Shown in pieces: positions 3,337-59,731 of a stretch of 64,000 nt of DNA (within the stretch, counting starts at the first letter, position 1; each line of letters starts with the position of its first letter). The stretch is from Glandiceps talaboti. Its lineage: Eukaryota > Hemichordata > Enteropneusta > Spengelidae. The position numbers were made by a program, and so were the translations under genes. The stretch is from contig NC_135561.1 of assembly GCF_964340395.1 (NCBI RefSeq), positions 24,498,986 to 24,562,985 on the forward strand, in the 5' to 3' direction. Below the pieces are notes generated by a model. That model was not told the origin of the DNA. It was given only the letters and a program-made list of their open reading frames with translations, and did not search any database.

Positions 3337-6335
3337 TAGATGAAGGTGAATTCACTATATAGGGAATGGGGATGCATCTAGGGATGTGTAGATGAAGGTG
3401 AATTCACTATAAGGGGAATGGGGATGCATCTAGGGATGTGTAGATGAAGGTGAATTCACTATATGGGGAATGGGGATGCATCTAGGGATGTGTAGATGAA
3501 GGTGAATTCACTATATGGGGAATGGGGATGCATCTAGGGATGTGTAGATGAAGGTGAATTCACTATATGGGGAATGGGGATGCATCTAGGGATGTGTAGA
3601 TGAAGGTGAATTCACTATATGGGGAATGGGGATGCATCTAGGGATGTGTAGATGAAGGTGAATTCACTATATGGGGAATGGGGATGCATCTAGGGATGTG
3701 TAGATGAAGGTGAATTCACTATATGGGGAATGGGGATGCATCTAGGGATGTGTAGATGAAGGTGAATTCACAACATGGGGAATGGGGATGCATCTAGGGA
3801 TGTGTAGATGAAGGTGAATTCACTACATGGGGAATGGGGATGCATCTAGGGATGTGTAGATGAAGGTGAATTCACAACATGGGGAATGGGGATGCATGTG
3901 GGGATGTGTAGATGAAGGTGAATTCACTATATGGGGAATGGGGATGCATCTAGGGATGTGTAGATGAAGGTGAATTCACTATATGGGGAATGGGGATGCA
4001 TCTAGGGATGTGTAGATGAAGGTGAATTCACTATATGGGGAATGGGGATGCATCTAGGGATGTGTAGATGAAGGTGAATTCACTATATGGGGAATGGTGA
4101 TGCATCTAGGGATGTGTAGATGAAGGTGAATTCACAACATGGGGAATGGGGATGCATCTAGGGATGTGTAGATGAAGGTGAATTAACTATATGGGGAATG
4201 GGGATGCATCTAGGGATGTGTAGATGAAGGTGAATTCACTATATGGGGAATGGGGATGCATCTAGGGATGTGTAGATGAAGGTGAATTCACTATATGGGG
4301 AATGGGGATGCATCTAGGTATGTGTAGATGAAGGTGAATTCACTACATGTATATGGGGAATGGGGATGCATCTAGGGATGTGTAGATGAAGGTGAATTCA
4401 CTATATGGGGAATGGGGATGCATCTAGGGATGTGTAGATGAAGGTGAATTCACTATATGGGAAATGGGGATGCATCTAGGGATGTGTAGATGAAGGTGAA
4501 TTCACTATATGGGGAATGGGGATGCATCTAGGGATGTGTAGATGAAGGTGAATTCACTATATGGGGAATGGGGATGCATCTAGGGATGTGTAGATGAAGG
4601 TGAATTCACTATATGGGGAATGGGGATGCATCTAGGGATGTGTAGATGAAGGTGAATTCACTATATGGGGAATGGGGATGCATCTAGGGATGTGTAGATG
4701 AAGGTGAATTCACTATATAGGGAATGGGGATGCATCTGGGGATGTGTAGATGAAGGTGAATTCACTATATGGGGAATGGGGATGCATCTGGGGATGTGTA
4801 GATGAAGGTGAATTCACTATATGGGGAATGGGGATGCATCTAGGGATGTGTAGATGAAGGTGAATTCACTATATGGGGAATGGGGATGCATCTAGGGATG
4901 TGTAGATGAAGGTGAATTCACTATATGGGGAATGGGGATGCATCTAGGGATGTGTAGATGAAGGTGAATTCACTATATGGGGAATGGGGATGCATCTAGG
5001 GATGTGTAGATGAAGGTGAATTCACAACATGGGGAATGGGGATGCATCTAGGGATGTGTAGATGAAGGTGAATTCACTACATGGGGAATGGGGATGCATC
5101 TAGGGATGTGTAGATGAAGGTGAATTCACAACATGGGGAATGGGGATGCATGTGGGGATGTGTAGATGAAGGTGAATTCACTATATGGGGAATGGGGATG
5201 CATCTAGGGATGTGTAGATGAAGGTGAATTCACTATATGGGGAATGGGGATGCATCTAGGGATGTGTAGATGAAGGTGAATTAACTATATGGGGAATGGG
5301 GATGCATCTAGGGATGTGTAGATGAAGGTGAATTCACTATATGGGGAATGGGGATGCATCTAGGGATGTGTAGATGAAGGTGAATTCACTATATGGGGAA
5401 TGGGGATGCATCTAGGTATGTGTAGATGAAGGTGAATTCACTACATGTATATGGGGAATGGGGATGCATCTAGGGATGTGTAGATGAAGGTGAATTCACT
5501 ATATGGGGAATGGGGATGCATCTAGGGATGTGTAGATGAAGGTGAATTCACTATATGGGAAATGGGGATGCATCTAGGGATGTGTAGATGAAGGTGAATT
5601 CACTATATGGGGAATGGGGATGCATCTAGGGATGTGTAGATGAAGGTGAATTCACAACATGGGGAATGGGGATGCATCTAGGGATGTGTAGATGAAGGTG
5701 AATTCACTATATGGGGAATGGGGATGCATCTAGGGATGTGTAGATGAAGGTGAATTCACTATATGGGGAATGGGGATGCATCTAGGGATGTGTAGATGAA
5801 GGTGAATTCACTATATGGGGAATGGGGATGCATCTAGGGATGTGTAGATGAAGGTGAATTCACTATATGGGGAATGGGGATGCATCTAGGGATGTGTAGA
5901 TGAAGGTGAATTCACTATATGGGGAATGGGGATGCATCTAGGGATGTGTAGATGAAGGTGAATTCACTATATAGGGAATGGGGATGCATCTGGGGATGTG
6001 TAGATGAAGGTGAATTCACTATATGGGGAATGGGGACGCATCTGGGGATGTGTAGATGAAGGTGAATTCACTATATGGGGAATGGGGATGCATCTAGGGA
6101 TGTGTAGATGAAGGTGAATTCACTATATGGGGAATGGTGATGCATCTAGGGATGTGTAGATGAAGGTGAATTCACTATATGGGGAATGGTGATGCATCTA
6201 GGGATGTGTAGATGAAGGTGAATTCACTATATAGGGAATGGGGATGCATCTGGGGATGTGTAGATGAAGGTGAATTCACTATATGGGGAATGGGGATGCA
6301 TCTGGGGATGTGTAGATGAAGGTGATTTCACTACA
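3337..6335 (+). repeat. 52-bp satellite array, ~57 units, with higher-order structure
   Basis: The unit 'gatgaaggtgaattcact' recurs exactly every 52 bp (for example 3339 and 3391). Variant units (acaacat, actacat, 'gcatgtgggg', 'ctaggtatg', a +6 insertion 'ctacatgtatatgg', 'gggaaatgg', 'tatagggaat') occur in the same order twice. The two passages lie 1,098-1,254 bp apart, and the differences between offsets equal three whole units (156 bp). That shows block duplication plus unit gain or loss. No coding potential. Confidence 0.97.
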
Positions 6336-6747
6336 TGATGATCCCATCAGCAATATTTACATAGTCAGGTGGCTTTAATAGTAATTTTATTGTTAAATGC
6401 CAAATTCGGCAAAAGTGTTCGTGAGGACTTACCTATTGATTTTAGCTGAGGAGCCTGCTTGAATATTTGCATACATTTGCATAAATCATTAAAATTCAAG
6501 AATGTCTCTGTCAACCATGAAAATAACATATGTTTCAGCAAAATTACTCACTGAAAGACACTAATTTTGGCATGAATCATGCTTAAGATATATTTATTGG
6601 TTTTATCTTTGAAGCTTTTTTAGAAAAGTTGCATATATTATATGTTTGTATATCAATAATGAAATTGACAATGGCCATTATTACCATTGAAAACACCTTT
6701 AAGTCAGGAAAATAATTTACATAAAGGAGCCAAATTATCCCTTAGTA
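6336..6747. other. No gene seen
   Basis: AT-rich unique-looking sequence between the satellite and a LINE tail. No open frame, RNA gene or clear repeat recognised. Confidence 0.6.
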
Positions 6748-38300: not shown

Positions 38301-38955
38301 GTTAGACATACAGGATTCTGGTTATACATTGTAAACATATATAGGACACTTAGACATACAGGATTCTGGTGATACATTGTAAACATATATAGCGCACTTA
38401 AACATACAGGATTCAGGTGATACATTATAAACATATATAGGGCACTTAGACATACAGGATTCTGGTGATACATTGTAAACATATATAGGACAGTTAGACA
38501 TACAGGATTCTGGTGATACATTGTAAACATATATAGGACAGTTAGACATACAGGATTCTGGTAATACATTGTAAACATATATAGGGCAGTTAGACATACA
38601 GGATTCTGGTGATACATTGTAAACATATATAGGACAGTTAGACATACAGGATTCTGGTAATACATTGTAAACATATATAGGACACTTAGACATACAGGAT
38701 TCTGGTGATACATTGTAAACATATATAGGACACATAGACATACAGGATTCTGGTGATACATTGTAAACATATATAGGACACTTAGACATACAGGATTCTG
38801 GTAATACATTGTAAACATATATAGGACACATAGACATACAGGATTCTGGTAATACATTGTAAACATATATAGGACACATAGACATACAGGATTCTGGTGA
38901 TACATTGTAAACATATATAGGACACTTAGACATACAGGATTCTGGTAATACATTG
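38301..38955 (+). repeat. 48-bp satellite, left block (~13.6 units)
   Basis: The unit 'ttagacatacaggattctgg' plus 'tgatacattgtaaacatatataggacac' repeats every 48 bp. Since 48 is a multiple of three, several frames stay open for hundreds of codons on the minus strand. These are artefacts. Confidence 0.97.
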
Positions 38956-39726
38956 CAACATAATTATAAAATGGGAGACAATATTCTCAGAATTGTAAAG
39001 CAGCACTCCTACTTGGGCATTGAACTGTCACATGACCTGGAATGGAAGCACCACATATCAAATATCACATCTAAAGCATCAAGGATCCTAGGACTACTAC
39101 AGAGACATCTACATGACTGTCCTCCCAGTACCAAACAAACTGCATATATGTCCCTTGTACGACCGCGTTTGGAGTATTGTGCAAGTATATGGGACCCTTA
39201 CACCAAAGTTGGCAAAAATGCTGTTGAAAAAATTCAACGCAAAGCAGCTCGATTTGTCACCGGAAACTACAAGAGGGAGGCCAGTGTATCCGATATGCTA
39301 CGGAAGCTCCAATGGCAATGCCTTGAAAATCGCAGAGCAGTTAGCAGACTAACTTTCCTATACAAAGCTACAAAAAATCTAGTTGCTTTTCAAGATGATA
39401 AACTACCAGAATCATCATCACGTTCTACTAGGGGAAGTGTACCTGGTTCTTCTTTCATATCGATCATCGCTAAGAAAAACTGTTACAAATATTCACTTAT
39501 TCCTCGGACAATTCCAGAATGGAATCTCTTACCATTATCCATTCAACAAGCAAAGACAATAGACAGTTTCAAATCTGCCCTCTCCAGCATTGATATCACC
39601 GATCTCATAGATCGTGCTCACCTGAACACGGGTGAGATCTAAAGGACGCCGCCAGCGTTACGCCTGTGTGATGATAATCCTTTTTAGGATGTTTACACAG
39701 TATAGAAGTAGAAGTAGAAGTAGAAG
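38956..39726 (+). mobile_element. 5'-truncated non-LTR retrotransposon inserted in the 48-bp satellite
   Basis: One open frame, about 38962-39642, covers the region after the reverse transcriptase: 'HSYLGIELSHDLEWKHHISN', 'ASRILGLLQRHLHDCP', 'LVRPRLEYCASIWDPYTK', 'VEKIQRKAARFVTGNYKR', 'LQWQCLENRRAVSRL' and a final 'IPEWNLLPLSI' block. This is the conserved C-terminal arm of CR1/Jockey-like LINE proteins. The catalytic part is absent. The 3' end is a (TAGAAG)n tail at about 39703-39726. The flanks ('acattg' | 'taaacatat') reconstruct one satellite unit exactly, so the insertion has no target duplication. Confidence 0.9.
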
Positions 39727-41786
39727 TAAACATATATAGGGCACTTAGACATACAGGATTCTGGTGATACATTGTAAACATATATAGGACAGTTAGACAT
39801 ACAGGATTCTGGTAATACATTGTAAACATATATAGGACACTTAGACATACAGGATTCTGGTAATACATTGTAAACATATATAGGACACTTAGACATATAG
39901 GATTCTGGCAATACATTGTAAACATATATAGGGCAGTTAAACATACAGGATTCTGGTAATACATTGTAAACATATATAGGACAGTTAGACATACAGGATT
40001 CTGGTAATACATTGTAAACATATATAGGACAGTTAGACATACAGGATTCTGGTAATACATTGTAAACATATATAGGGCACTTAGACATACAGGATTCTGG
40101 TAATACATTGTAAACATATATAGGACACTTAGACATACAGGATTCTGGTAATACATTGTAAACATATATAGGACAGTTAGACATACAGGATTCTGGTGAT
40201 ACATTGTAAACATATATAGGACAGTTAGACATACAGGATTCTGGTGATACATTGTAAACATATATAGGACAGTTAGACATACAGGATTCTGGTGATACAT
40301 TGTAAACATATATAGGGCACTTAGACATACAGGATTCTGGTAATACATTGTAAACATATACAGGACAGTTAGACATACAGGATTCTGGTAATACATTGTA
40401 AACATATATAGGACAGTTAGACATACAGGATTCTGGTAATACATTGTAAACATATATAGGACACTTAGACATACAGGATTCTGGTGATACATTGTAAACA
40501 TATATAGGGCACTTAGACATACAGGATTCTGGTAATACATTGTAAACATATACAGGACAGTTAGACATACAGGATTCTGGTAATACATTGTAAACATATA
40601 TAGGGCACTTAGACATACAGGATTCTGGTAATACATTGTAAACATATATAGGACAGTTAGACATACAGGATTCTGGTAATACATTGTAAACATATATAGG
40701 GCACTTAGACATACAGGATTCTGGTAATACATTGTAAACATATATAGGACACTTAAACATACAGGATTCTGGTAATACATTGTAAACATATATAGGGCAC
40801 TTAGACATACAGGATTCTGGTAATACATTGTAAACATATATAGGACACTTAAACATACAGGATTCTGGTAATACATTGTAAACATATATAGGGCACTTAG
40901 ACATACAGGATTCTGGTGATACATTGTAAACATATATAGGACAGTTAGACATACAGGATTCTGGTAATACATTGTAAACATATATAGGGCACTTAGACAT
41001 ACAGGATTCTGGTAATACATTGTAAACATATATAGGACAGTTAGACATACAGGATTCTGGTAATACATTGTAAACATATATAGGGCACTTAGACATACAG
41101 GATTCTGGTAATTCATTGTAAACATATATAGGACACATAGACATACAGGATTCTGGTGATACATTGTAAACATATATAGGACACTTAGACATACAGGATT
41201 CTGGTAATACATTGTAAACATATATAGGACACTTAGACATACAGGATTCTGGTGATACATTGTAAACATATATAGGGCACTTAGACATACAGGATTCTGG
41301 TAATACATTGTAAACATATATAGGACACTTAGACATACAGGATTCTGGTGATACATTGTAAACATATATAGGGCAGTTAGACATACAGGATTCTGGTAAT
41401 ACATTGTAAACATATATAGGGCACTTAGACATACAGGATTCTGGTAATACACTGTAAACATATATAGGACACTTAGACATATAGGATTCTGGTGATACAT
41501 TGTAAACATATATAGGGCACTTAGACATACAGGATTCTGGTGATACATTGTAAACATATATAGGGCAGTTAGACATACAGGATTCTGGTAATACATTGTA
41601 AACATATATAGGGCAGTTAGACATACAGGATTCTGGTAATACATTGTAAACATATATAGGACACTTAGACATACAGGATTCTGGTAATACATTGTAAACA
41701 TATATAGGACACTTAGACATACAGGATTCTGGTAATACATTGTAAACATATATAGGGCACTTAGACATACAGGATTCTGGTGATAC
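39727..41786 (+). repeat. 48-bp satellite, right block (~43 units)
   Basis: Continuation of the array interrupted at 38955. Units differ at a few fixed places (aca/gca, ctt/gtt/cat, gtgat/gtaat). The apparent 690-714-codon minus-strand frames are products of the repeat. Confidence 0.97.
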
Positions 41787-43677: not shown

Positions 43678-44186
43678 TCACGCATTGATTGCATCTTTAC
43701 TGTGGGGCAAACTATTCTCTTTTATCCAATTTATTAATGGGTCATGTTCACTCTCATCTCCTTCTCCTGTTTGCAGACATTGCAAACATACACCTCTCTT
43801 TCTCAGAAATGGTGTAAATATGATGTCATTATATATACATTGGCCACAAATCAATAGTACGAAGCCGAGTACTTCCAGAGCAAGGAAATTCTCCCACCGT
43901 AGTAAACAACTGATTCCCCAGATAACAACTGTACGGACACTATCTAGAACCATACGTGTTGTAGCACTGATTTCCTTTGTAACGCTGATACCGGCAAAGT
44001 TGAAGAAAGCGATGCTGACCATGTTACCAAGAAATGCTAGAATCAACAGGTGGTTGTTTGCCATCTGGTAAAATGCATCTATGGCGTCTTCAAGTCGATG
44101 ACCTGGGCTGTCCAGTCTTAGATCACCAGCATTGATATAGTAGAATGGTATAAGCAGCAAACTTAGAAACATAAATCCAAAAAAAC
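43678..44186 (-). CDS. SLC35F6: SLC35F6-like transporter, last coding exon
   Basis: Minus strand, starting just after an acceptor ('caattatttgtag', exon from 44186, entering in phase 1) and ending with a stop at 43680-43678. About 169 residues follow the SLC35F6 pattern: 'GFFGFMFLSLLLIPFYYI', an acidic amphipathic 'RLEDAIDAFYQM', then 'LAFLGNMVSIAFFNFAGISV', 'TKEISATTRMVLDSVRTVVI', 'FLALEVLGFVLLICGQCIYN' and a Cys/Glu-rich cytosolic tail. Several membrane helices are visible. SLC35F6 belongs to the drug/metabolite transporter superfamily; substrate not established. Earlier exons were not found. They should lie to the right, beyond the P-like transposon, and may be outside the window or lost, in which case this is a fragment. 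Confidence 0.88.
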
Positions 44187-44538
44187 CTACAAATAATTGA
44201 AATATTGGTAAGTAATAAGATGTAATTCCCCCAATTTTACTTTGTTCAGCCAAGGAAAACACGGGTGACGTAGGGGCCTTTGTCACTACAAGCCATTAGA
44301 CAAGTATTTTCTGAAGAAAAATATTGGAGAATAACATAATTATACCAGTACCAGTAATATCAAAGAAAAATCAGGGAAAGTAATGACAATTTTGAATGTT
44401 TTGACTCATATTTTGAACAAAGGAGAACCAGTGATGTAGACACAAGTTGTCGTGACATAGATGTACATTGTTGTGACATAGAATGACCAGTCTGGGTGGA
44501 TATATTCTATATTCTTTGTTAAACTTGGCTTGCGCATG
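44187..44538. other. Probable intron of the SLC35F6-like gene
   Basis: About 350 bp between the exon acceptor and the P-like transposon; no other exon seen. Confidence 0.5.
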
Positions 44539-44545
44539 GTATAAT

Positions 44546-44581
44546 CATAGACAGTGGAGGGGAGAAGGACAGGAAAGCCGG
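44546..44581 (+). repeat. P-like transposon left terminal inverted repeat
   Basis: 36 bp, exactly complementary to 53964-53999; begins CATAGACAGTGG and ends AAAGCCGG. Divergence starts at the next base. Confidence 0.97.
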
Positions 44582-44829
44582 CAAAACTTCAAAGAGTAAT
44601 CTTTGTTTATCTTTGCGAGCTTGTCTGGAATATAACAGTTGGCGCTGCCTAATCTCGCGCGTGTGTAAATACGGGAAATGACGTCATCTGACGCTACCAG
44701 CACAACCAGCCTGACGCGATAACTCACAACGTGTGGTTCGAGGTGCAAAAGAAATCGTGTTTTCTCAATCTTTTCGAAGATATTTCGTCCGAATTTGGAG
44801 TTTGTCTCTTCTGTCATTAGGTTCTAACG
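44582..44829 (+). promoter_or_regulatory. Probable 5' non-coding exon and promoter of the transposase
   Basis: No plus-strand coding frame, but 'gttctaacg|gtaagtttc' at 44829/44830 is a strong donor. Its likely partner is the acceptor at 46441-46442. A full TGACGTCA (CRE/ATF-type palindrome) lies at 44679-44686 inside GC-richer sequence. The transcription start is not defined. Confidence 0.5.
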
Positions 44830-45898
44830 GTAAGTTTCTTTTGCCATTCTCAGTTAATTTTCTATACGTACACTTTCAGTCAAGACAATGAAATGCTTCG
44901 ATGTCTAATTGTTGTCTGTAAATTGTATCAATGTGTCACTTCAAGTTATGGATTTTGTCCCCGTATTACTATTTTCTGGTCATGTTTTTATGGAAACCAC
45001 ATGCATGAAGTCGTTCTTGTGTTACTAAACAAGTGCACCGTGCAATTTGCCGTTGTCGAGTGTATACTGACGTCGTATAAAAATAAATCAAAAAATGCCC
45101 GACCACAGGTTATGACTTATGTTCTCATGTTCATATGTTGTTTACTGCTAAAACTTTACCGTTGTTGTCTTTGTATTAGTTTGTAAAGTTTTTGAACTAA
45201 AATTTCTCCGTCGGTTTTTTTGTGTGTGTAAAGACATGCACGAAGTCTTTCTGCCAGAGGCAAAACGTGTACTTTGACATTTTCTGTGGACAAGGGGTAT
45301 CATGTCATACAATTACTCGACATTCGAATGCCACGATTGTCCCTGTACAGCTCGTAACTGACGTACCGATTTGCTAAATTAGTCTAATTTTGTCCCCCTT
45401 TTACAATTTTGTCGTTAAATATCCTTCGAAAAAACATGGACCATGTCGTTCCGATTGAGGTTTATCATGTCACCACGTAAACAGTACTCAATGAACTTGT
45501 CATGGCGTCGTGTAATAAAAGCTACAAAAATCCAAGGTTTAGGGTACCCGGGGCCCTTTTTATGGCTGATGACATATGGTTTCTCTCATATTCCTTCTCG
45601 TACCCCCTTTCTGAGAGTGTACGGTTAATATTGTCGCTCGACAACTGAGGAGATGTCGGTTTCCGGAGTCTCCGTACGTAGCTTTGTCTATCACTTCCGG
45701 GAAGCAAAACAGCTGTATGCGTTCACGTAGTTGAGTATAGCCGGCCATGTATCAGCGTTAAAAAATTGCAAAATATATTACGAGTATAATCATAATGGTA
45801 TAATCATAACCATCGATACCACAACTCTAAGGTGTGCATGTAGCATTTGTAATCACCCCGTCATGCAATGGCGTCAAACAACAACAACAACAACAACA

Positions 45899-45962
<64 letters not shown>

Positions 45963-46442
45963 TCATGTCCTTGAGTATCAATAATACAATAATAGTATCA
46001 TTGCCTCCAGATAACAATTTGTGTTGTTTTGGTTGGTGTGCAAATTGAGTGATATTACTAGTCCGGTCAAAATTATCAGTACTAATAGTAATATATCAAC
46101 ATAATTTTCTTTCTCAAGGTTCTGTTCATAACTTGGGTTCATACTGTCACATTTACTATGAATAGTATCAGTATTTTTATTGATAATTAATAAAAAGTCA
46201 AAAGTAAAACTGAAGAGGCATAATATTCTACAACACCATGAAGATGTTATTTTGTTTTGGTTCACATCCCTGGAAGTCTCCATATGTTCTCCATGACATT
46301 TTCTACATTAAAACTAATTGAGCTATTAATTTTCTATATTAATTTTTGTTGATATGGATAACATGTACTTCAGATATTCTATGGTATTCCACAATGCTAA
46401 CAATTGCTTTTTTCATTTGTGATTTTTTTTTACTCACATCAG
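44830..46442 (+). other. Putative first intron of the transposase gene
   Basis: About 1.6 kb ending in a long pyrimidine tract and 'tactcacatcag'. Contains (CAA)n/(TAA)n at about 45880-45962. No THAP-type zinc-binding frame found here. Confidence 0.6.
45880..45962. repeat. Microsatellite (CAA)n then (TAA)n
   Basis: Trinucleotide run in the transposase intron. Confidence 0.95.
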
Positions 46443-46447
46443 ACATC

Positions 46448-49400
46448 ATGCCTTACAAATGGGGTGTGTCCCAACACAGGAAAAATTATAAGAGAAAAAG
46501 ACAAACAAAGGCTGCAGAAAAGAAGGAAGTGCAAACAAACAAAGACCAAACAGAACATGAAGAACATTCAAGTCTATTGGTATGTGACAACATTCCAAAC
46601 AGCACACAACAGCCAGATGTATACGACAACCTGCCAAACTTGCAACAGACACACAGGCAATCACAACAGCCAAGTATTGGTCTTTTGAATGAAATACAAC
46701 TGCCGTCAGTCAGTCACCTGCCAAATAGCACAGTCTACTCTTATCCAGTGCCACAATCAACTCTACAGTATCCCCTCACTCCTGCTATATACAACCAGTC
46801 AGTTGTTAAAGTCTGTAATGAAGTTCCTCACTGCTTCAGTCAAGGTCATCCAGTTACATGTACACACAAACATACATCATGCTCAAACAACTTTGATATT
46901 ATCCAGACCAGAGTTCATTCACATTGTTTACCGAAGGGATGGGTGAAGCAGTTCAGTGAAGACATGTTGCATTTTCTTTATATAATGGCGGAGGGTAGTG
47001 AAGACCCTGAGATACTGAAATCAGTTTTGTTAGCTAGAGATGGGACATGGAATGTAAAGGTTCACCAGTGTGACGTATCAAGTCAACCAGTCCTAGATGA
47101 GTTTCCTAGAATGATCACATCAGCATCAACTCTCCTGTCCCTTTTAGATAAAGTGCACCAAAGCAGTTTATGCATTGGCAACCCAGATGACAAATTTGAA
47201 GAAATTGCCAGCTGTAGAAATGGTGTTTTCATTGGTGTAGGCACTGGTAAATCTGCAGTGACAGTAGGTCAGAGACAAAGAAGGAATGTCATAGACAGGC
47301 ATGGTGTGAAGCACAAGTACTCACTATTTTCAGTCGACTGCCAGGCACTTCTTCCACAGGGGAAGAAAAGGTGTAGTGCTTGTTACAATTTCCGCAACAA
47401 ATTATTCGCGATTTTATCAAAGGAGAAAAGACGGTCAAATGAAGAAGACAAACCCTTTTCCAGGACTGATGCAAGCAGTACTGTACCACTATCAAGGTTG
47501 AATGAAAGTGAACTTCATTTAAGGACATTGAATATTATTAAGGCAAAGAGAAGAATAGAGTCAAGGGAGGCAAGGCTGCGCAATAAACTAAACATGAATA
47601 TCAGAGAAGAAGGTGTTCCACTTGATAGTGGCCTCTCAGATGGTTTAGAGCAAGTGGTACAGCAGTACACAGAAGTTATTGAAAGAGAACACAGGGAGGG
47701 TTCTTTTGAAAGACTGTTTTGGGAACAGCAGTTAAAGGCCATACAATGTCAGGATAAGCGGGCCTGTAGGTGGCATCCAATGTTTATTAAATGGTGCCTA
47801 AACTTACGTTTACGGTCTGGTGCTGCTTACAGGGCACTGAAAGACAGTGGGGTTATTGAACTTCCAAATGAAAGAACTTTAAGAGACTATACACAATGGA
47901 CTAAACCATCAACAGGCTTTACATGTGACATATTAGAGCAACTGTACAGGGAGTGTAACTTTCTTCAATTAGAAGACTACCAGAAGTATGTAGTGCTGCT
48001 ACATGATGAGTTGCGAATTAAATCTGATCTGGTGTACGAGAAGAGCAGTGGCACGCTTGTTGGCTTCATCAACATGGGTAATTTTTGCAATGTTCTGGCA
48101 GATTACGAAGGGCATTTGGATGGAAACAGTTCCAAAACACCAGACATTGCCAATTATATTCTGGCATTTATGGTCCGTGGCATTACCATTAATTTGCAAT
48201 ATCCAATAGCCCATTTCCCGACAAAGACCATTACATCAGACTTTCTTTGGATACTTGTTTGGGAGGCCATCGCCTACTTAGAATTAATTGGATTCAAAGT
48301 AATGGCCTCAACTGCAGATGGAGCATCAGCAAATCGAAGATTCTGCAGGCTGCACAGTGCTGATAGAAATTCCAGGGAGGTGGTCTATCGTACCAATAAC
48401 CCATACGCAATGGATGAGAGATATATTTACTTTTTCTCTGATGTTCCCCATCTAATGAAAACTACCAGGAACTGTTGGTCTAACTCTGGTTCTCACAGTA
48501 AAAAGAGAATTCTTTGGGTAAGTCAATTTAAAGTGTTTTCACTGCTGATGGAAAATACTGGTAACTCGTCTGCTACTATTATTTTCCTCAATAGATAGCA
48601 TGATCAACCAAATTTATCGTACCTGACAAAGTAATAAATAGTTTGAAAGCAACAGATATGTAATTTTTTATAGATTTTTTTTAATCATTGCAAATGTGTG
48701 TACATGCGTATACATGAAGTGGCCATTGAATTGACCATGCAAACTAGTTTGCATCAGATACAGATACGATTCTGAAAAGCTATGATGTTAGCAAACTGAC
48801 ATAAATTGTTTTAAATTTGTTTTTAGAATGGTGACAACATCAGTTGGAAAACTCTTGAAGGCATATACAGGGCAGATCTTGAGCGAGGTGGTCTTTTCTT
48901 GTGCTACAAGCTAAAGTATGAACACATATACCTAACATCATTTTCCAGAATGAAAGTCAAGTATGCAGTTCAGGTAAGAATGGAAATATAGGGTATATCT
49001 TTGCTGATCAAGCATGATACAATTCTCGAATGGCAAAATTAAGTGTTATTCATAACATTAATCTATTTACAAAGCACCCAGAAATATCTTGAGGCATGTA
49101 ATTGCTTTCGACACTGTCCATGAAAACATGTACAAAGATAAATGTTAAAAAGAATTCATTTCATTCCTACAACAGGTTCTCAGCTCCACAGTAGCCAATG
49201 CAATTGAGACATTTTATGGAAATGGGAACAGGGCTACCATACAGTTCATTTGCCATTTTGATAAATTCTTTGATTGCTTAAATGTGCGGAGTGTGAAGGA
49301 GGGCAAACTGAAGAGGAAACCAGATTTGTTACCATATAGATCACCTGATGATGCAAGGTTAAAGGTCAGTGGTCTCGCTGTATTTACCATGAGTTCAATA

Positions 49401-50815
49401 TGTAGTGTAAAAACATTATAGTGCAAAAATTTCACAATTACACTTATAAATTACTAAAGATTATGGAAAAGTATTTTGAATACTCTTGATGGTTTCCAAG
49501 AATAATCTGTAGTGGTTAAACAACTTGCAGTTCTTGTGTGCTATGACAAAGCCAGATGTTTAAATCTTGGGAGAAGTTAATCTAAACTAACAACAGTCAC
49601 CATTATCCTTTCCTTCGTTAATTTGTAGTGTTTGTAGTGAACTACTGAACATGCTAAACTCTGCGCAAAATGATTACTGGCATATATACAAACTATGACC
49701 TTCCATTTCAGTGGCTAGAGAATGACTTTTTGAAGTACCTCAGCGATTGGGATGAGGTTGTTGATGCCAGACATGAGTTATCTCCTAAAGAGAGGAACAA
49801 AATGAAGCTCAGCAGAGAAACGCTAGAAGGACTCCGCATGTCAGGTATGAAATTATTCAACTTTTTTTGTAATGACAATTGGCTAGATGTCACCAGCCAA
49901 AGATGTGTCAGTTTGATTAGCCGAGAAAGTTTTTTTCTTTATTTATTCATGTGTGATTTATAGTGAAAGCAAAACACACTGCACTGATGTTGTGCTACTA
50001 GTATGTATATATATATTTATGTATGTGTTCAGGTCACAACACTTTTGCTAATTGGTATTTTACATGTGTATTCCTTTCTGCATTGTCAACTTAAAGTGGC
50101 CATGTAGATGAGAACTGGGTATTTATTTTGGATTTTAATTTATGAAAAAGTAATGTTTTTCTACTTGAAAAAACAATGTGAAACAATATATACAAAGTCC
50201 TTGTTTGTAACTCAATGAATTGCAAAACACTAAAATATGTGTAAAATGTTTGTTATTGTACGTACAATAACAAACTTTGCATGTTGTTGTTTTAAATTGA
50301 GAAACAAACAAGGTCTTGGTATATGTTATTTCACATTGTTTTTTCAAATAGGAAAACATACTATAACCTTTTTATAAAATTAAAAATCCAAAATAAATAC
50401 CCAAATCTAATGCATATGGCCACTTTAAGTTTCAAAAGTGACTTATTCCTAGTACTAGTAGGTAAAACAAAACCTTTGGTCAGTCAGTAGTTTTAACTAA
50501 GTGAATCTATTTTTTCTTGATGCAGTGAAATCGGCAGTAGAACTGACGCGCTACCTACTATCACAGCCAGGTGTACAGATGGTTTTAACTGAGAAATTTA
50601 ACCAGGATCCACTGGAATCCTATTTTGGAAACCAAAGGCAGATGAAAGGTGGTAATGAAGCCCCTTCAGTCCAGCAGTTCAGTCAGAATGCAAATGCTTT
50701 GAGACTTAAATCATCAAACATGTTGAAGATAAAGAGTGGGAATGTCATGACTGATGCGGCTTTTGAACTTGACCACAGACCATTACCTCATCGACGCAGA
50801 CCATACTCAATGTAG
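46448..50815 (+). CDS. P-element-type transposase, five coding exons, 942 residues
   Basis: Coding exons 46448-48517, 48827-48973, 49176-49364, 49712-49844 and 50526-50815, all GT/AG and in phase. The ATG (MPYKWGVSQHRKN) is six bases after the acceptor at 46441-46442. The N-terminus is basic, then Gln/Pro/Asn-rich to about residue 150. No THAP domain is visible. A C-x2-C motif (Cys309, Cys312) precedes an R/K-rich helix. 'WHPMFIKWCLNLRLRSGAAY' (from 442) is the THAP9/P-type helix-turn-helix. The RNase H-fold catalytic acids appear as Asp520 in 'LLHDELRIKSDLVY', Asp624 in 'STADGASANRRF' and Glu877 in 'NQDPLESYFGNQR'. 'FFSDVPHLMKTTRNCW' and the exon 3-4 segments match the insertion domain. It should cut and join the element ends in the nucleus. 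Confidence 0.93.
48518..48826 (+). other. Transposase intron 2
   Basis: gtaagt ... ttttag; reading through it gives a stop at about 48598, so an unspliced transcript would encode a truncated protein of about 716 residues. Confidence 0.8.
49845..50525 (+). other. Last transposase intron, carrying a MITE
   Basis: gtatga ... cttgatgcag; retention would end the protein at a stop near 49963, before the catalytic Glu877. Most of its length is the AGTGGCC MITE. Confidence 0.75.
50091..50428. mobile_element. AGTGGCC MITE nested in the transposase intron
   Basis: AGTGGCCAT...ATGGCCACT at 50095-50424 is flanked by TTAA on both sides (50091-50094 and 50425-50428). The arms of about 60 bp are imperfect inverted repeats containing 'gggtatttattttggatttt'. 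A relative lies at 43246-43598. Confidence 0.82.
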
Positions 50816-50832
50816 GAAAGGGAAATACTAGC

Positions 50833-50868
50833 CATAGACAATAGTGGGGGGTCCCTTCATTGTCTATG
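50833..50868. repeat. Internal CATAGACA inverted repeat between the two transposon genes
   Basis: CATAGACAAT (50833-50842) and ATTGTCTATG (50859-50868) flank a G-rich loop. The left half resembles the terminal sequence CATAGACAGTGGAGGGG. It lies 18 bp after the transposase stop. Confidence 0.7.
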
Positions 50869-50889
50869 TTCTAACATGGCTAAATAATT

Positions 50890-50895
50890 AATAAA
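50890..50895 (+). terminator. Poly(A) signal of the transposase gene
   Basis: AATAAA 75 bp after the stop codon. Confidence 0.55.
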
Positions 50896-50957
50896 ATCTC
50901 ATCAACATCACAAATATATGAAAGACTCTAACTAAATGTATGTGTAGCTCCTTATAA

Positions 50958-50963
50958 TTTATT
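50958..50963 (-). terminator. Poly(A) signal of the zinc-finger gene
   Basis: AATAAA on the minus strand, about 360 bp after its stop; the two 3' ends converge within about 70 bp. Confidence 0.5.
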
Positions 50964-51325
50964 TAAGGTTATTAATTTGTTGGTACATAAAATGAAAAAC
51001 TTGTAAATTGTACAATGATTGACAGAAATAACACTCTCTCATATCTGTAAGTACCAAGTATCACAGTCATGATTACAATGTACATGTACACGGTGTTAAC
51101 AAGCACACAACAGTTAATTTTTAAAAATGCATGTTTGTATTTGTAATGCCAAGTGGTACTCACATCCTGAACAGTAAAACCCTTTTTTATCATGTTTACA
51201 GGGTATCTTAAAAATAAAATTAAGTAAATATTCAGTTGTTTGTATAAAGTAGTAGTGGCAGACTTGAAAAGTTGAAGGGTTACCACATTCAGGTCAATGT
51301 ATTGACATGACTTAAAATACATGGT

Positions 51326-53818
51326 TCACTTGTCATGTAATTGTTTCAACTCTTTTCTTAGTGCTTTAGAATGCTGCTTTTTCAATTCCTTGACCTTGTG
51401 TTCTTGGAGTAATTTACGAGCTGTTGAATGCCCTCTTATGTTAACCCATAATTTTATACACATGAACATAAGCTGAAGTGCAGAGTCTTCTGACAAACCC
51501 TTAGACAATTCTGACCAATGCTGCAAACTTGCATTATCTGACATTACACTATCAGTAACTAGTTTGTGAATATTACTGTCCTGACCTGAAAGCTGAATAA
51601 AATTGCCAGCAAGCTTTCTTACAAAGTATTCAATTCTACGGAAAAATAAGTATAATGTATCATTTACTTGGTACAGACCACCCCTGTTCTCACACAGTAC
51701 CCAATGTGTTGTATAACAAAGAAATGAAGATGCTTCCTGGTTAGTAGTTTGCATGTTCCTAAGACATTCTACAACATTTCTAAATTTGGGGCCACGTTGT
51801 TCAAGTTGTTTAATAAGCGCCATAGGTATGTAGCCACAAGCATATCGTAGTATGTTTTCTTCAACTGTATCCATGTCAACTTTAAAATGAAACTCTGATG
51901 ACTCTACTTTTTCTCTCCATGAAACTAGGGCTTGGAAAATGTACCTTGTTAATGTCATTAATACTGGGACAGAAACACTTAACCCAGCCTTTGCACATAA
52001 AGAGTTCATAGAACACCTTAATTCTGAACCTTGAAGAACACTGTGGAATACACGAAACATTTCCTCTCTTCGAGATGAATTGAGACGTTGTTTGTCGCCT
52101 CCCACTACTGCTGGCCACAATACATCAATAACACGTGTAACTTCTTGATCGAGTGATTGTGGGCTTTCTTGTAGTACCTCTGTAAGTTTCTTGGCAGTCT
52201 TCAAAACTTCTGTCACACCCAAAAGTAACTTGCTTTTGAAAATATCATTTGACAATACGTACTGGAGTGCATCAAGAAATATGCTTACAGACACACTTAC
52301 AGCTTGTGTTTGGTTAGGTAAGTTTGGCCCTGTAATAAGAAATAACAAATGTGCAAGATGTCAATACCTAGTACAAATACTTAAATACAAAACATTAAGA
52401 TAGTGATAACCATGTAAAATTGTAGAACACTGTCTAAGTTATGTTTAAAAGAAAAAGTACGCAAAATCAAGGGCTGACTTTGTAGTATGGCACAAACTAT
52501 GTTACATGGGTAGTGAGTAATAATTTGTCTATATATCTTCAAAGGGAATCATTAGTACGTGAATGTGTCATTAACTGTTCTTTACAACAGACTAAGAGCT
52601 CAAATGGATATTTTAATGGTGTACACAACATTTTCAGAGATCAAACTGTAGTGTTCTCTACAAGGGTTTTCAGATGGAAATTTAACAGGACCCTGATCTG
52701 TGATTTAAATCAACATTTCTTACACTTGTAAATATTTCCTATCTCTGATACATCACAATATATAATGTTCACTCTATTAGTATATGAAGAGGTTGCCATT
52801 CTAGACTTTATTCATGTCATTCCACTGAGATACAAAAAATGCTATACATTCTCAGATTTTACTTTAGTCCGCTCATTGAATGATAGTATACATGTAGTAT
52901 GTGTTTTACAATTATTGAATTAAAAAGTGAATTTTCTATACCTGTAACCTTGTTTATTCTCCCTTTTTTCTTCTTCTTTGATTCTTCATTGTGGTTATCA
53001 CTGCTGGGTGGGTAATCTGGAAGAGATAGTACATTCAAGTTTTATCACTTTATAATACTACTGACGTATGTGGATTTCACTTCACATTTCAATTCAATAA
53101 TTACCAGCTAGCAGCTGACACATCTTATGCCGAAATCTATCAAATCATGGAAACGTGTGTGATGGTAACATCCCTTTCAATTAGTTATATACGTACTCTT
53201 ACTTTCTCTACTTCATTATTAACTTTGCCTGTCAACAATATTTCAGTTATATGAGTGAAAAAAACGTCTATTGTGGACGTACCAAAATTTAACCGTCAGT
53301 AAAGATATCAACAGATCGCCAATAATTCAAAATGATCTCGAGTCGGGCATTTCCACAATACAGTCAATGTCAATTTCTGGTACAGTCTGAAACATCTACG
53401 ACGTCTTTATACTCTATCACTCTTATAGCCACCTTAGTAAGAAAATTCACTTACCTAATATATCATGAGCCTTCATAAGATGACTTTTACAGGCCTGCTT
53501 GTTTTTATATGATTTGTCACATACATCGCATCGAAACTGATTTCCTCCTTCCATTTCAACCACGATAATATAGCGATCGAGATAACGAAGGTTGCGACGC
53601 TTTGGCCCCCTGGTTTGTTTGACATCATTCTCTGTGTCCTCCTCGTTCTTAACATATTCGTCGTCATCATTTTCGTCACAACTGTCTTCAAATTCTGATA
53701 AATCAGAAAAATTGACGTCGGCAAACTCGTCGTACGCGTTACTGTCAGCCATGATGAAATGACGCAATGACGATTCTCGCGAAATAACATCACTCAAACT
53801 GCGAGAATTGAGGCTCAT
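51326..53818 (-). CDS. Transposon-encoded C2H2 zinc-finger accessory protein, three exons
   Basis: Exons 53818-53455, 53016-52942 and 52329-51326, GT/AG, in phase. The first ATG (53818) gives 480 residues. An in-frame ATG at 53752 (context atcATGG, 'MADSNAYDEF') gives 458 and is numbered here. Residues 1-45 are acidic. One C2H2 finger follows (Cys75, Cys78, His91, His96; 'FRCDVCDKSYKNKQACKSHL'). A Lys-rich patch 'ESKKKKKGR' may be a nuclear signal. A helical region of about 330 residues contains 'ENILRYACGYIPMALIKQLE' (near 284), 'ENRGGLYQVND' (near 342) and 'IKLWVNIRGHSTARKLLQ' (near 418), ending in a basic tail. From memory, proteins with this C-terminal pattern occur beside P-like transposases in other invertebrates. 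A role in DNA binding, targeting or regulation is inferred. Confidence 0.82.
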
Positions 53819-53963
53819 TTACATAGTATCGTTACTGTTAACGCGAGGAAGCGTGAGATTATGCTAAACCGTCAGTCGAGGATCGTTGAGTTAATCTTGT
53901 TCCCGATGATCGGATTAAGAAGGTGATAATATATTCCAGACAACCCTGCTTGAAAGGAAAATA
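53819..53963 (-). promoter_or_regulatory. Subterminal promoter region of the zinc-finger gene
   Basis: 145 bp between the right inverted repeat and the first ATG. Transcription must start here or in the repeat. No TATA box seen. Confidence 0.4.
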
Positions 53964-53999
53964 CCGGCTTTCCTGTCCTTCTCCCCTCCACTGTCTATG
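53964..53999 (-). repeat. P-like transposon right terminal inverted repeat
   Basis: Exact reverse complement of the left 36 bp, followed directly by GTATAAT. Confidence 0.97.
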
Positions 54000-54168
54000 G
54001 TATAATAAATACTTAATTATAATCTTTATTGATACTCAACAGTTCTAGATTATCCAAAGATATCGAGTGAGGGCTGAACTGTGATGGAAACCAGTGTACT
54101 CTGGGAATTTAAAGCCTGACTGTGTTGTTTAATAGAGTCAAACTGAATTACACTCTCTTTGTGTACAG

Positions 54169-54620: not shown

Positions 54621-57600
54621 GGACCCCTAAAACTAATAAACTACAACCAGGACCCCTATAATGAATAGATCACAACCAGGACCCCTATAATGAATAGATC
54701 ACAACCAGGACCCCTATAATGAATAGATCACAACCAGACCCCTATAATGAATAGATCACAACCAGGACCCCTATAATGAATAGATCACAACCAGGACCCC
54801 TGTAATGAATAGATCACAACCAGGACCCCTATAATGAATAGATAACGACCAGGACCCCTATAATGAATAGATCCCAACCAGGACCCCTATATTGAATAGA
54901 TCACAACCAGGACCCCTACAATGAATAGATCACAACCAGGACCCCTACAATGAATAGATCACAACCAGACCCCTATAATGAATAGATCACAACCAGGACC
55001 CCTACAATGAATAGATCACAACCAGGACCCCTATAATGAAAAGATCACAACCAGGACCCCTAAAATGAATAGATCACAACCAGGACCCCCATAATGAATA
55101 GATCACAACCAGGACCCCTACAATGAATAGATCACAACCAGGACCCCTATAATGAATAGATCACAACCAGGACCCCTATAATGAATAGATCACAACCAGG
55201 ACCCCTATAATGAATAGATCACAACCAGACCCCTATAATGAATAGATCACAACCAGGACCCCTACAATGAATAGATCACAACCAGGACCCCTATAATGAA
55301 TAGATCACAACCAGGACCCCATAATGAATAGATCACAACCAGGACCCCTACAATGAATAGATCACAACCAGGACCCCTACAATGAATAGATCACAACCAG
55401 GATCCTTGAAACTAATAAACTACAACCAGGACCCCTATAATGAATAGATCACAACCAGGACCCCTATAATGAATATATCACAACCAGGACCCCATAATGA
55501 ATATATCACAACCAGGACCCCTAAAATGAATAGATCACAACCAGGACCCGTATAATGAATAGATCACAACCAGGACCCCTACAATGAATAGATCACAACC
55601 AGGACCCCGAAAACTAATAAACTACAACCAGGACCCCTATAATGAATAGATCACAACCAGGACCCCTATAATGAATATATCACAACCAGGATCCCTAAAA
55701 CTAATAAACTACAACCAGGACCCCTATAATGAATAGATCACAACCAGGACCCCTATAAAGACTAGATCACAACCAGGACCCCTACAATGAATAGATCACA
55801 ACCAGGACCCCTATAATGAATAGATCACAACCAGGACCCCTATAATGAATAGATCACAACCAGGACCCCTATAATGAATAGATCCCAACCAGGACCCCTA
55901 TAATGAATAGATCACAACCAGGACCCCTATAATGAATAGATCACAACCAGGACCCCTAAAACTAATGAACTACAACCAGGACCCCTATAATGAGTAGATC
56001 ACAACCAGGACCCCTATAATGAATAGATCACAACCAGGACCCCTATAATGAATAGATCACAACCAGGACCCCTAAAACTAATAAACTACAACCAGGACCC
56101 CTATAATGAATAGATCACAACCAGGACCCCAACAATGAATAGATCACAACCAGGACCCCTATAATGAATAGATCACAACCAGGACCCCTAAAATGAATAG
56201 ATCAAAACCAGGACCCCAATAATGAATAGATCACAACCAGGACCCCTATAATGAATAGATCACAACCAGGACCCCTAAAATGAATAGATCAAAACCAGGA
56301 CCCCAATAATGAATAGATCACAACCAGGACCCCTATAATGAATAGATCACAACCAGGACCCCTAAAATGAATAGATCAAAACCAGGACCCCAATAATGAA
56401 TAGATCACAACCAGGACCCCTACAATGAATAGATCACAACCAGGACTCTTATAATGAATAGATCACAACCAGGACCCCTACAATGAATAGATCACAACCA
56501 GGACCCCTATAATGAATAGATCACAACCAGGACCCCTATAATGAATAGATCACAACCAGGACCCCTATAATGAATAGATCACAACCAGGACCCCCATAAT
56601 GAATAGATCACAACCAGGACCCCTATAATGAATAGATCACAACCAGGACCCCTACAATGAATAGATCACAACCAGGACCCCTACAATGAATAGATCACAA
56701 CCAGGACCCCTAAAACTAATAAACTAAAACCAGGACCCCTACAATGAATAGATCACAACCAGGACCCCTATAATGAATAGATCACAACCAGGACCCCTAC
56801 AATGAATAGATCACAACCAGGACCCCTAAAACTAATAAACTACAACCAGGACCCCTATAATGAATAGATCACAACCAGGACCCCTATAAAGACTAGATCA
56901 CAACCAGGACCCCTACAATGAATAGATCACAACCAGGACCCCTAAAATGAATAGATCAAAACCAGGACCCCAATAATGAATAGATCACAACCAGGACCCC
57001 TACAATGAATAGATCACAACCAGGGCTCTTATAATGAATAGATCACAACCAGGACCCCTACAATGAATAGATCACAACCAGGACCCCTATAATGAATAGA
57101 TCACAACCAGACCCCTATAATGAATAGATCACAACCAGGACCCCTATAATGAATAGATCACAACCAGGACCCCCATAATGAATAGATCACAACCAGGACC
57201 CCTATAATGAATAGATCACAACCAGGACCCCTACAATGAATAGATCACAACCAGGACCCCTACAATGAATAGATCACAACCAGGACCCCTAAAACTAATA
57301 AACTAAAACCAGGACCCCTAAAATGAATAGATCACAACCAGGACCCCTACAATGAATAGATCACAACCAGGACCCCTATAATGAATAGATCACAACCAGG
57401 ACCCCTACAATGAATAGATCACAACCAGGACCCCTAAAACTAATAAACTACAACCAGGACCCCTATAATGAATAGATCACAACCAGGACCCCTACAATGA
57501 ATAGATCACAACCAGGACCCCTACAATGAATAGATCACAACCAGGACCCCTATAATGAATAGATCACAACCAGGACCCCTATAATGAATAGATCACAACC

Positions 57601-58107
57601 AGGACCCCTATAATGAATAGATCCCAACCAGGACCCCTATAATGAATAGATCACAACCAAGACCCCTATAATGAATAGATCACAACCAGGACCCCTACAA
57701 TGAATAGATCACAACCAGGACCCCTATAATGAATAGATCACAACCAGGACCCCTACAATGAATAGATCACAACCAGGACCCCTATAATGAATAGATCACA
57801 ACCAGGACCCCTAAAATGAATAGATCACAACCAGGACCCCTATAATGAATAGATCACAACCAGGACCCCTAAAATGAATAGATCACAACCAGGACCCCTA
57901 TAATGAATAGATCACAACCAGGACCCCTACAATGAATAGATCACAACCAGGACCCCTACAATGAATAGATCACAACCAGGACCCCTATAATGAATAGATC
58001 ACAACCAGACCCCTATAATGAATAGATCACAACCAGGACCCCTATAATGAATAGATCACAACCAGGACCCCTACAATGAATAGATCACAACCAGGACCCC
58101 TATAATG
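54621..58107 (+). repeat. 29-bp satellite array, ~120 units
   Basis: The unit 'aatagatcacaaccagg' + 'acccctataatg' repeats every 29 bp. A variant unit ('aaactaataaactacaacc') is interspersed. A block of about 580 bp (20 units) is duplicated: the markers 'atcaaaaccaggaccccaat' at 56375/56955 and 'ctcttataatg' at 56443/57023 share this spacing. No spacers and no cas genes, so not a CRISPR array. Confidence 0.97.
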
Positions 58108-59731
58108 TGTCTGTATTGAGTATTGTTTCAAAGGTGTTTGAAAGAGTGGTGTACAATCAAATTAATGATTATCTTGTCCAAAATAGTTTACTGTATGAAT
58201 TCCAGTCTGGTTTTAGGCCCTCTTATTCTACCGATACATGTCTAATTCACCTGTCAGACTATATCAAACAAGAAAATGATAAAGGGAACCTCACCGGTAT
58301 GGTTATGTTAGATCTCCAAAAGGCTTTCGATACGGTACATCATGATATACTATTAACTAAACTTAAATATTTAGGGATTAATGAATTATCGGTAAAGTGG
58401 TTCAAATCGTATCTAACTGGTAGGTCACAAGTCGTTGATGTCCATGGTGTTCGTTCTGGATCTAAAGAAATTGCATGTGGGGTCCCCCAAGGCTCCATTC
58501 TCGGGCCTCTTCTGTTTCTGATATATGTGAATGATATGAAGGCTGCAGTTAAGTGCAAACTTATGCTGTATGCTGACGACTCAGCATTGTTGGTATCAGG
58601 GAAGGATATATCAGAGATAGAGGAGACCCTGAGTATGGAGTTGACATCCGTTAGTGAATGGTTAACAGACAATAAGCTATCTTTACATCTGGGTAAAACT
58701 GAGTCTATTTTATTTGCCTCCAAGAAACGTTTGCATACAACAAATAAAGTAAATGTGCGTTGTAACGGGAATGAGATTGAATCTAAGGCGAGTGTGTCAT
58801 ACTTGGGGGTTTCATTGGATCAGTCTTTATCTGGTGAGATTATAGCTTCTAGCGTGCTATCAAAATGCACAAACAAACTTAAATTTTTATACCGTAATAC
58901 TCGATCTTTTAATCTGAAAACAAAGAAATTACTTGTCTCGGCTTTGATTCAGTGTCATTTCGACTATGCCTGTTCATCGTGGTACAGTGGTCTCACAAAG
59001 AAGTTGAAGGGTAGACTACAAGTTCTGCAAAATAACATCATAAGATACATACTTAGTGCTGCTCCTAGAACACACATTGGATATAATCAATTTAAACTTG
59101 TAGGTATGTTTCCTGGAGAATTGAGGGTTGAGCAATTAAAACTCAATCATATGTTCAACATCATAAATCGTTGTGCTCCTGAGTACTTAAATTGCAATAT
59201 AGAAATGGTCCGTAATCGGCACAGTTATAGAACAAGAGCGAGTGAACTGTCATGTGTAGTTCCAAGAGTCAGTGGTATGGGTAAGAGTTCATTCGCTTAC
59301 ACAGGCATTGGTCTTTGGAATAGTCTCCCACTCTCAGTGAAACAATCTCATACAAAACATAGTTTTAAAAACCATGTCAAATCTTTTTTATGGAACAAAT
59401 TAGAGGTTAAAGAACATAGTATTTTGTAACTTTTTAGTCCTTCCTTTTTAAATTGAGGGTGTAGTCTGTGTATTTTATAATTTTTTTGTGCTCTGTCATC
59501 TGTATTTCATTTAAATTTTTTTATATTTTGTTTGTTTGTTTGTTTGTTTGTTTGTTTGTTGTTGTTGTAACACTGTTGCCATGGCGTTTTGAATACCTCT
59601 ATGAGGACCACATTGGAAATAAGTGTTTTTAAAAATACTTTTATGTGTTATCCTCGGTGATTTTTTATCCTTGTATTTTAATATGTACTTGTATAAATTT
59701 TTACCCAAATAAAATCATATCATATCATATC
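58108..59731 (+). mobile_element. Non-LTR retrotransposon (LINE), 5'-truncated, with open RT frame
   Basis: The reading frame 58110-59429 is uninterrupted. It holds most of a reverse transcriptase: 'FQSGFRPSYSTDTC', 'VMLDLQKAFDTVHHDIL', 'GVPQGSILGPLLFLIYVND' and 'LMLYADDSALLV' (catalytic Asp-Asp at residues 156-158). The C-terminal arm follows ('VSYLGVSLDQSL', 'FDYACSSWYSGL', 'GIGLWNSLPLSV'). The endonuclease and the first RT motif are missing. The element abuts the satellite directly at 58107/58108. The 3' end carries a short (ATCAT)n tail at about 59713-59731. CR1/L2/Rex1-like by pattern. The intact frame suggests a young but immobile copy. Confidence 0.92.

Follow-up and report, generated by a model that had tools for sequence, protein, structure and literature searches.

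The subject of this report is a 64,000-nucleotide stretch of the genome of the acorn worm Glandiceps talaboti, a hemichordate (NC_135561.1, positions 24,498,986 to 24,562,985 of the forward strand; hereafter the window) and a P-superfamily transposon of 9,454 bp that occupies positions 44546-53999 of it. The element carries two convergent genes, a transposase on the + strand (gene 1) and a zinc-finger gene on the - strand (gene 2), and gene 2 appears to end in the domain with which P transposases normally end. Since gene 2 seems to hold a domain that is missing from gene 1, the two genes give the impression of a single transposase that has been divided, and not of a transposase accompanied by an unrelated helper. 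We consider it probable that the element, an intact cut-and-paste transposon, encodes a split P transposase, whose C-terminal domain and zinc finger have moved to a second protein, and that both proteins would act as one enzyme.

That the element is a transposon of the P superfamily, as the initial annotation had proposed, is near certain. Pfam recognized TNP-like RNase H N, GTP-binding insertion and RNase H C domains in the 942-amino-acid (aa) product of gene 1, and the catalytic D520, D624 and E877 together with D665-x2-H668 aligned to the Drosophila motifs; all of these but E877 are carried by coding exon 1. The D(2)H motif is a feature of the superfamily (PMC4168063), and the terminal inverted repeats and 7-bp target-site duplications of nine elements described below agree with the same placement. 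The Drosophila P transposase core has 442 residues, of which 440 are covered by a structure model of a relative, and gene 1 ends where that core ends. P elements have been described as one-gene elements whose enzyme begins with a THAP domain, which according to the same source all known P proteins possess (PMC1562414). In the modelled gene 1 protein no THAP domain was detected by Pfam at E values up to 10, in agreement with the earlier remark that none was visible. Three marks of a canonical P element were not found here: an N-terminal THAP, a C-terminal domain in the same polypeptide and an 8-bp duplication.

Gene 2 encodes 458 aa in 3 exons. The zinc finger attributed to it beforehand is present as a C2H2 motif at aa 73-96, with a best Pfam E value of 0.0046, below the curated cut-offs. 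What had been overlooked is that gene 2 also seems to hold the C-terminal domain absent from the transposase gene. A structure model of a Saccoglossus relative of gene 2 aligned with the C-terminal domain of Drosophila P transposase (6p5a_B) over 115 of 118 residues; this was the top match among 997 chains aligned by VIA re-alignment of Foldseek candidates, with a moderate Z. A profile comparison of gene 2 with the P C-terminal domain gave E 8e-9, far above 60 shuffles and 120 fragments. Other searches were negative: when PDB and viral models were searched by Foldseek with the gene 2 model, nothing was returned at E <= 0.001, so that 6p5a_B emerged only on re-alignment, a PDB sequence search with the gene 2 alignment had a best E of 0.69, and the Pfam THAP9 C-terminal model gave no score on gene 2 or its homologs. 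Tnp_P_element_C reached E 0.11 on the homolog P0119, under its cut-off. The C-terminus of gene 2 is basic, with 12 K/R and 4 D/E in the final 40 residues. On profile and model evidence, gene 2 is well supported as a homolog of the P transposase C-terminal domain, and it is very likely that gene 2 represents that domain in a displaced position. We also considered and rejected the identification of gene 2 as a known accessory protein, as Pfam gave only weak C2H2 scores on it and nothing convincing on its homologs.

We then asked how the transposase relatives end. The set comprised 97 transposases, the window's and 96 relatives, from which 34 that do not reach the C-terminus were left out. Among the remaining 63, all but P0110 and P0111 stop within 40 residues past the core and have no attached C-terminal domain (61/63, the window's included), a proportion in which one-piece proteins are under-sampled because only the 7,993 candidates with the most words in common with the query, within a length limit, were scored. 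These tail-less proteins thus lack, like gene 1, the domain that gene 2 resembles. In a tree of 50 of the 97 proteins (the window's and 49 relatives of at least 680 aa), the 48 tail-less rows, again including the window's, stood apart from P0110 and P0111 with support of 100/100; the branches of those two are very long. Named sources of tail-less transposases include Branchiostoma, Ylistrum, Amphiura, Clytia and Holothuria, and the 41 gene 2 homologs have Ptychodera, Saccoglossus, Glandiceps and the octocoral Paramuricea as named sources. A search of the 96 transposase matches with the gene 2 profile revealed no fused protein, and no relatives were confirmed in viral contigs or prokaryote genome contigs. 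Since 61 of 63 transposases lack an attached C-terminal domain, the tail-less, split arrangement may be widespread. As a separate observation, residues 27-112 of P0022, a tail-less Branchiostoma transposase, matched the Pfam RAG1 importin-binding domain (E 1.2e-7), an odd domain for a P-type protein.

The coordinates of the element are collected in the table below. An inverted-repeat scan of the window, and inspection of the flanks, upheld the reported perfect 36-bp ends, the identical 7-bp duplication (GTATAAT flanks both tips, and the next base differs, G on one side and A on the other) and the two convergent spliced genes, both of them open and with GT-AG introns throughout as predicted by our exon models. 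The span 44539-54006 given in the initial annotation is the element together with its duplications. An 8-bp duplication, GGTATAAT, was rejected because it requires unequal ends and because 7 bp suits nine of nine elements. Inside the terminal repeats lies a second, perfect inverted pair of 14 bp, TTGTCTGGAATATA. A long imperfect inverted repeat in transposase intron 4 (50088-50431; arms 50088-50216 and 50296-50431, 82-88% complementary) is probably a small nested element.

Table. Features of the transposon and its target-site duplications (positions in the window).
Feature	Position	Strand	Remarks
Target-site duplication GTATAAT, left	44539..44545		
Left terminal inverted repeat, 36 bp, perfect	44546..44581	+	
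Possible non-coding first exon, transposase gene	44546..44829	+	predicted by eye, with donor GTAAGT at 44830 and acceptor before 46443
Subterminal inverted repeat TTGTCTGGAATATA	44621..44634	+	76 bp from left tip; candidate protein-binding site
Transposase coding exon 1	46448..48517	+	N-terminal domain, helix-turn-helix region, most of RNase H, start of GTP-binding insertion
Transposase coding exon 2	48827..48973	+	
Transposase coding exon 3	49176..49364	+	
Transposase coding exon 4	49712..49844	+	
Transposase coding exon 5	50526..50815	+	catalytic E877; stop 65 residues further on
Gene 2 exon 3	51326..52329	-	helical region and domain resembling P transposase C-terminal domain
Gene 2 exon 2	52942..53016	-	
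Gene 2 exon 1	53455..53752	-	C2H2 zinc finger (aa 73-96) and an acidic N-terminus
Subterminal inverted repeat TTGTCTGGAATATA	53930..53943	-	57 bp from right tip; candidate protein-binding site
Right terminal inverted repeat, 36 bp, perfect	53964..53999	-	
Target-site duplication GTATAAT, right	54000..54006		

Using the left and the right end as queries, we sought further copies in the 590-Mb, 47-contig assembly and located eight elements of the window family. Both ends are present in all eight, and likewise in a diverged element on contig C24, and each is flanked by an identical 7-bp duplication, so that copy boundaries coincide with element ends in nine of nine cases. In eight of the nine duplications the first two bases are GT or the last two are AC (expected for each from window dinucleotides, 0.115; binomial tail, 2.5e-7). 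Two copies of the window family are full-length, the window's own and C19:16466610-16476276 (9,667 bp). Comparison of the two showed 14 substitutions and 4 indels, including a 236-bp insertion outside the coding exons; at the protein level a single residue of the transposase is changed, and the gene 2 products are identical. Since two copies of this length are nearly identical and have kept both frames, movement has been recent on a genomic time scale, in line with the recent mobility suggested at the outset.

The other six copies of the window family are deleted and measure 128 to 1,616 bp. In each, one end is retained along with its subterminal site (at 57 or 76 bp, 0-2 mismatches), and the opposite terminal repeat is a stub, exact for 21, 13, 13, 18, 9 and 17 nt. 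In two of them the kept end is itself mismatched early (exact for 13 and 11 nt), and stub and kept end were therefore told apart by the remaining sequence. The deleted copies C11:3.48M and C19:20.1M are only about 78% alike. The Drosophila P transposase cuts one strand 17 bp inside the repeat (PMC7776569), and such a cut would leave stubs like these at the donor site. The deleted copies may thus reflect donor-site repair broken off after copying one side, which would suit P-type chemistry.

The diverged element (C24:18349274-18358452; L046+L047 2775-11953) is 9,179 bp long and has perfect 37-bp ends (CATAGACCC...), the duplication GTTACAT and both genes in convergent orientation. Identity with the window element is 45% in transposase exon 1 and 40% in gene 2 exon 3. 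The two genes are adjacent in the NCBI locus numbering (LOC144452207 and LOC144452208), and the NCBI Glandiceps talaboti protein P0113 resembles the C24 frames in sequence. A search with the gene-2-side end of this element, in which 40 of 85 candidates were scored, gave 40 places: among those listed, 16 begin exactly at the element's first base, 19 form one set that begins 5 bases outside, and the remaining 5, the query's own included, begin elsewhere near the end. The best match to TTGTCTGGAATATA in the C24 element has 5 mismatches; because 612 of 2000 shuffles of the window right end do as well (5 or fewer), we claim no counterpart there. The left and right inner repeats are offset by 19 bp in both families, which in the C24 family, with a repeat of only 9 bp, may be due to chance. 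In all three full-length elements found (the window's own on C14, and those on C19 and C24), which hold the full-length Glandiceps transposases of this clade, gene 2 is retained beside the transposase. Neither of the two outcomes named beforehand as counting against the two-gene reading, copies without the second gene throughout or ends that depart from copy boundaries, was observed. Since a near-identical copy and a diverged element both keep the two genes, perfect ends and 7-bp duplications, the gene pair is a conserved unit.

Further transposases at C15, C5 (two), C7, C2 and C1 are truncated and showed no gene 2 in the stretches fetched; they say little on gene 2, because their last transposase exons are also unmatched there. 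Distant full-length P-like frames at C13 and C23 had no gene 2 within 9.9 kb. Another family (about 25% identity) is represented by two P-like frames, both open and some 780-790 aa long (L053 4374-6755 and L054 5058-7403), with no gene 2 detected nearby. Relatives of gene 2 at C17:14244013-14244994 (65% identity, two stops) and C2:333894-334220 (30%, partial) indicate at least one more gene 2 family in the genome.

If the two genes encode one enzyme, gene 1 would supply the catalytic core (helix-turn-helix, RNase H and GTP-binding insertion), with neither THAP nor C-terminal domain, and gene 2 a zinc-finger protein terminating in a P-type C-terminal domain. The latter would dock on the core at the position of the C-terminal domain, and its finger, in place of THAP, would read TTGTCTGGAATATA and pair the left and right ends, whose candidate sites lie at unequal distances from the tips. 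Cutting and insertion would follow the P style, with a staggered cut inside the repeat and a 7-bp stagger at targets mostly beginning with GT, and gene 2 would be required for transposition. In Drosophila, the C-terminal domain is borne by a disordered linker, makes contact with the transposon end where it is single-stranded and directs a basic helix toward target DNA (PMC7776569). Since that linker is flexible in the solved structure, a split at this point could be tolerated.

Gene 2 might instead be an accessory with a role of its own, as a repressor, targeting protein or transcription factor, with the transposase alone reading the ends through its N-terminal domain (about aa 155-345); even then the helical domain of gene 2 may descend from P transposase. 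We regard this as rather unlikely. It would be consistent with the N-terminal region of gene 1, which contains Cys motifs and has been conserved in relatives that lack THAP, and that transposition needs gene 2 is something we infer; Drosophila P elements, moreover, produce repressors from truncated transposase. However, an unrelated accessory leaves unexplained why gene 1 and its tail-less relatives are without the very domain that gene 2 resembles, and the gene pair has been retained across a diverged family.

Two other explanations deny the split altogether. A very improbable one is that gene 2, as a captured host gene or another gene of unrelated origin, resembles the P C-terminal domain merely through a chance match between helical folds. 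The moderate Z in a helical fold and the lack of a significant Foldseek or Pfam match would allow it, but the best of all aligned chains was the very portion of the P enzyme that gene 1 lacks, matched over nearly its whole length, and the independent profile comparison agrees. Only the slimmest chance attaches to an ordinary one-piece P element whose THAP and C-terminal exons were missed, or whose transcripts join the parts. The exon models were built from sequence alone, and small exons could be missed in the 5' leader (44546-46447); against this, the stop shortly past the catalytic E recurs in relatives from many sources, the THAP search was negative even at permissive E values, and the C-terminal-like domain lies on the opposite strand. 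P0016, the NCBI model of the C24 transposase, likewise has no THAP label, and its chain stops 60 residues after the catalytic E; in a structure model of it, residues 1-150 appear unstructured.

The window element was also compared with known systems. The Drosophila melanogaster P element (2.9 kb) is a single-gene transposon with an 8-bp duplication, and its enzyme bears both the THAP and the C-terminal domain on one chain (PMC7776569). The window element is 9.4 kb long, has a 7-bp duplication and carries two convergent genes; no THAP was found in it, and its gene 2 encodes a C2H2 finger. Target duplications of 7-8 bp are known in the P superfamily, and those of Galileo are usually of 7 bp, with the consensus GTATTAC (PMC4168063). 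Zebrafish Pdre2 shares terminal repeats beginning CATA and has 12-bp subterminal repeats (PMC10983969). Both differ from the window element in having a transposase with THAP, and the excerpts consulted on them mention no second gene; Galileo differs also in its very long inverted repeats and Pdre2 in its 8-bp duplication (PMC4168063, PMC10983969). RAG-like transposons (RAG1L-RAG2L) also have two convergent genes between inverted ends (PMC7204232), and the likeness extends to a two-subunit recombinase with a distantly related RNase H core. The window element encodes no RAG1-like transposase, by which a RAG-like transposon is recognized. PIF/Harbinger elements resemble it in that a second gene beside the transposase gene supplies DNA binding, and differ in their Myb-like second protein, 3-bp duplication and unrelated transposase family. 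A literature search that did not extend to most subscription papers or to Repbase entries revealed no recognisable two-gene P transposon or separate P C-terminal-domain protein.

Elsewhere in the window, a 449-aa open frame at 58080-59429 (+) has a reverse transcriptase domain (Pfam RVT_1, E 2.4e-31) and probably belongs to a LINE-type element. A 205-aa open frame adjoining the insertion (43678-44295, -) had no Pfam match at 0.001; by eye, we take it to resemble the end of an SLC35F6-type transporter. Large satellite-like arrays lie at 3337-6337, 38302-38962, 39726-41786 and 54621-58107 (units of 52, 48, 48 and 29 bp), the last starting about 600 bp to the right of the transposon.

Beyond this element, we see an even chance that a large animal P clade uses a split transposase, with the C-terminal domain on a separate convergent zinc-finger gene; a layout like that of RAG1/RAG2 would then have been reached independently, with C2H2 replacing THAP. 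If the split reading is true, an enzyme divided between two genes at a flexible linker would show how transposase subunits arise and are swapped, and it would be a second deuterostome case of a two-gene transposase beside RAG1/RAG2. The role of the P C-terminal domain would then become directly testable, because the domain can be supplied or omitted in trans.

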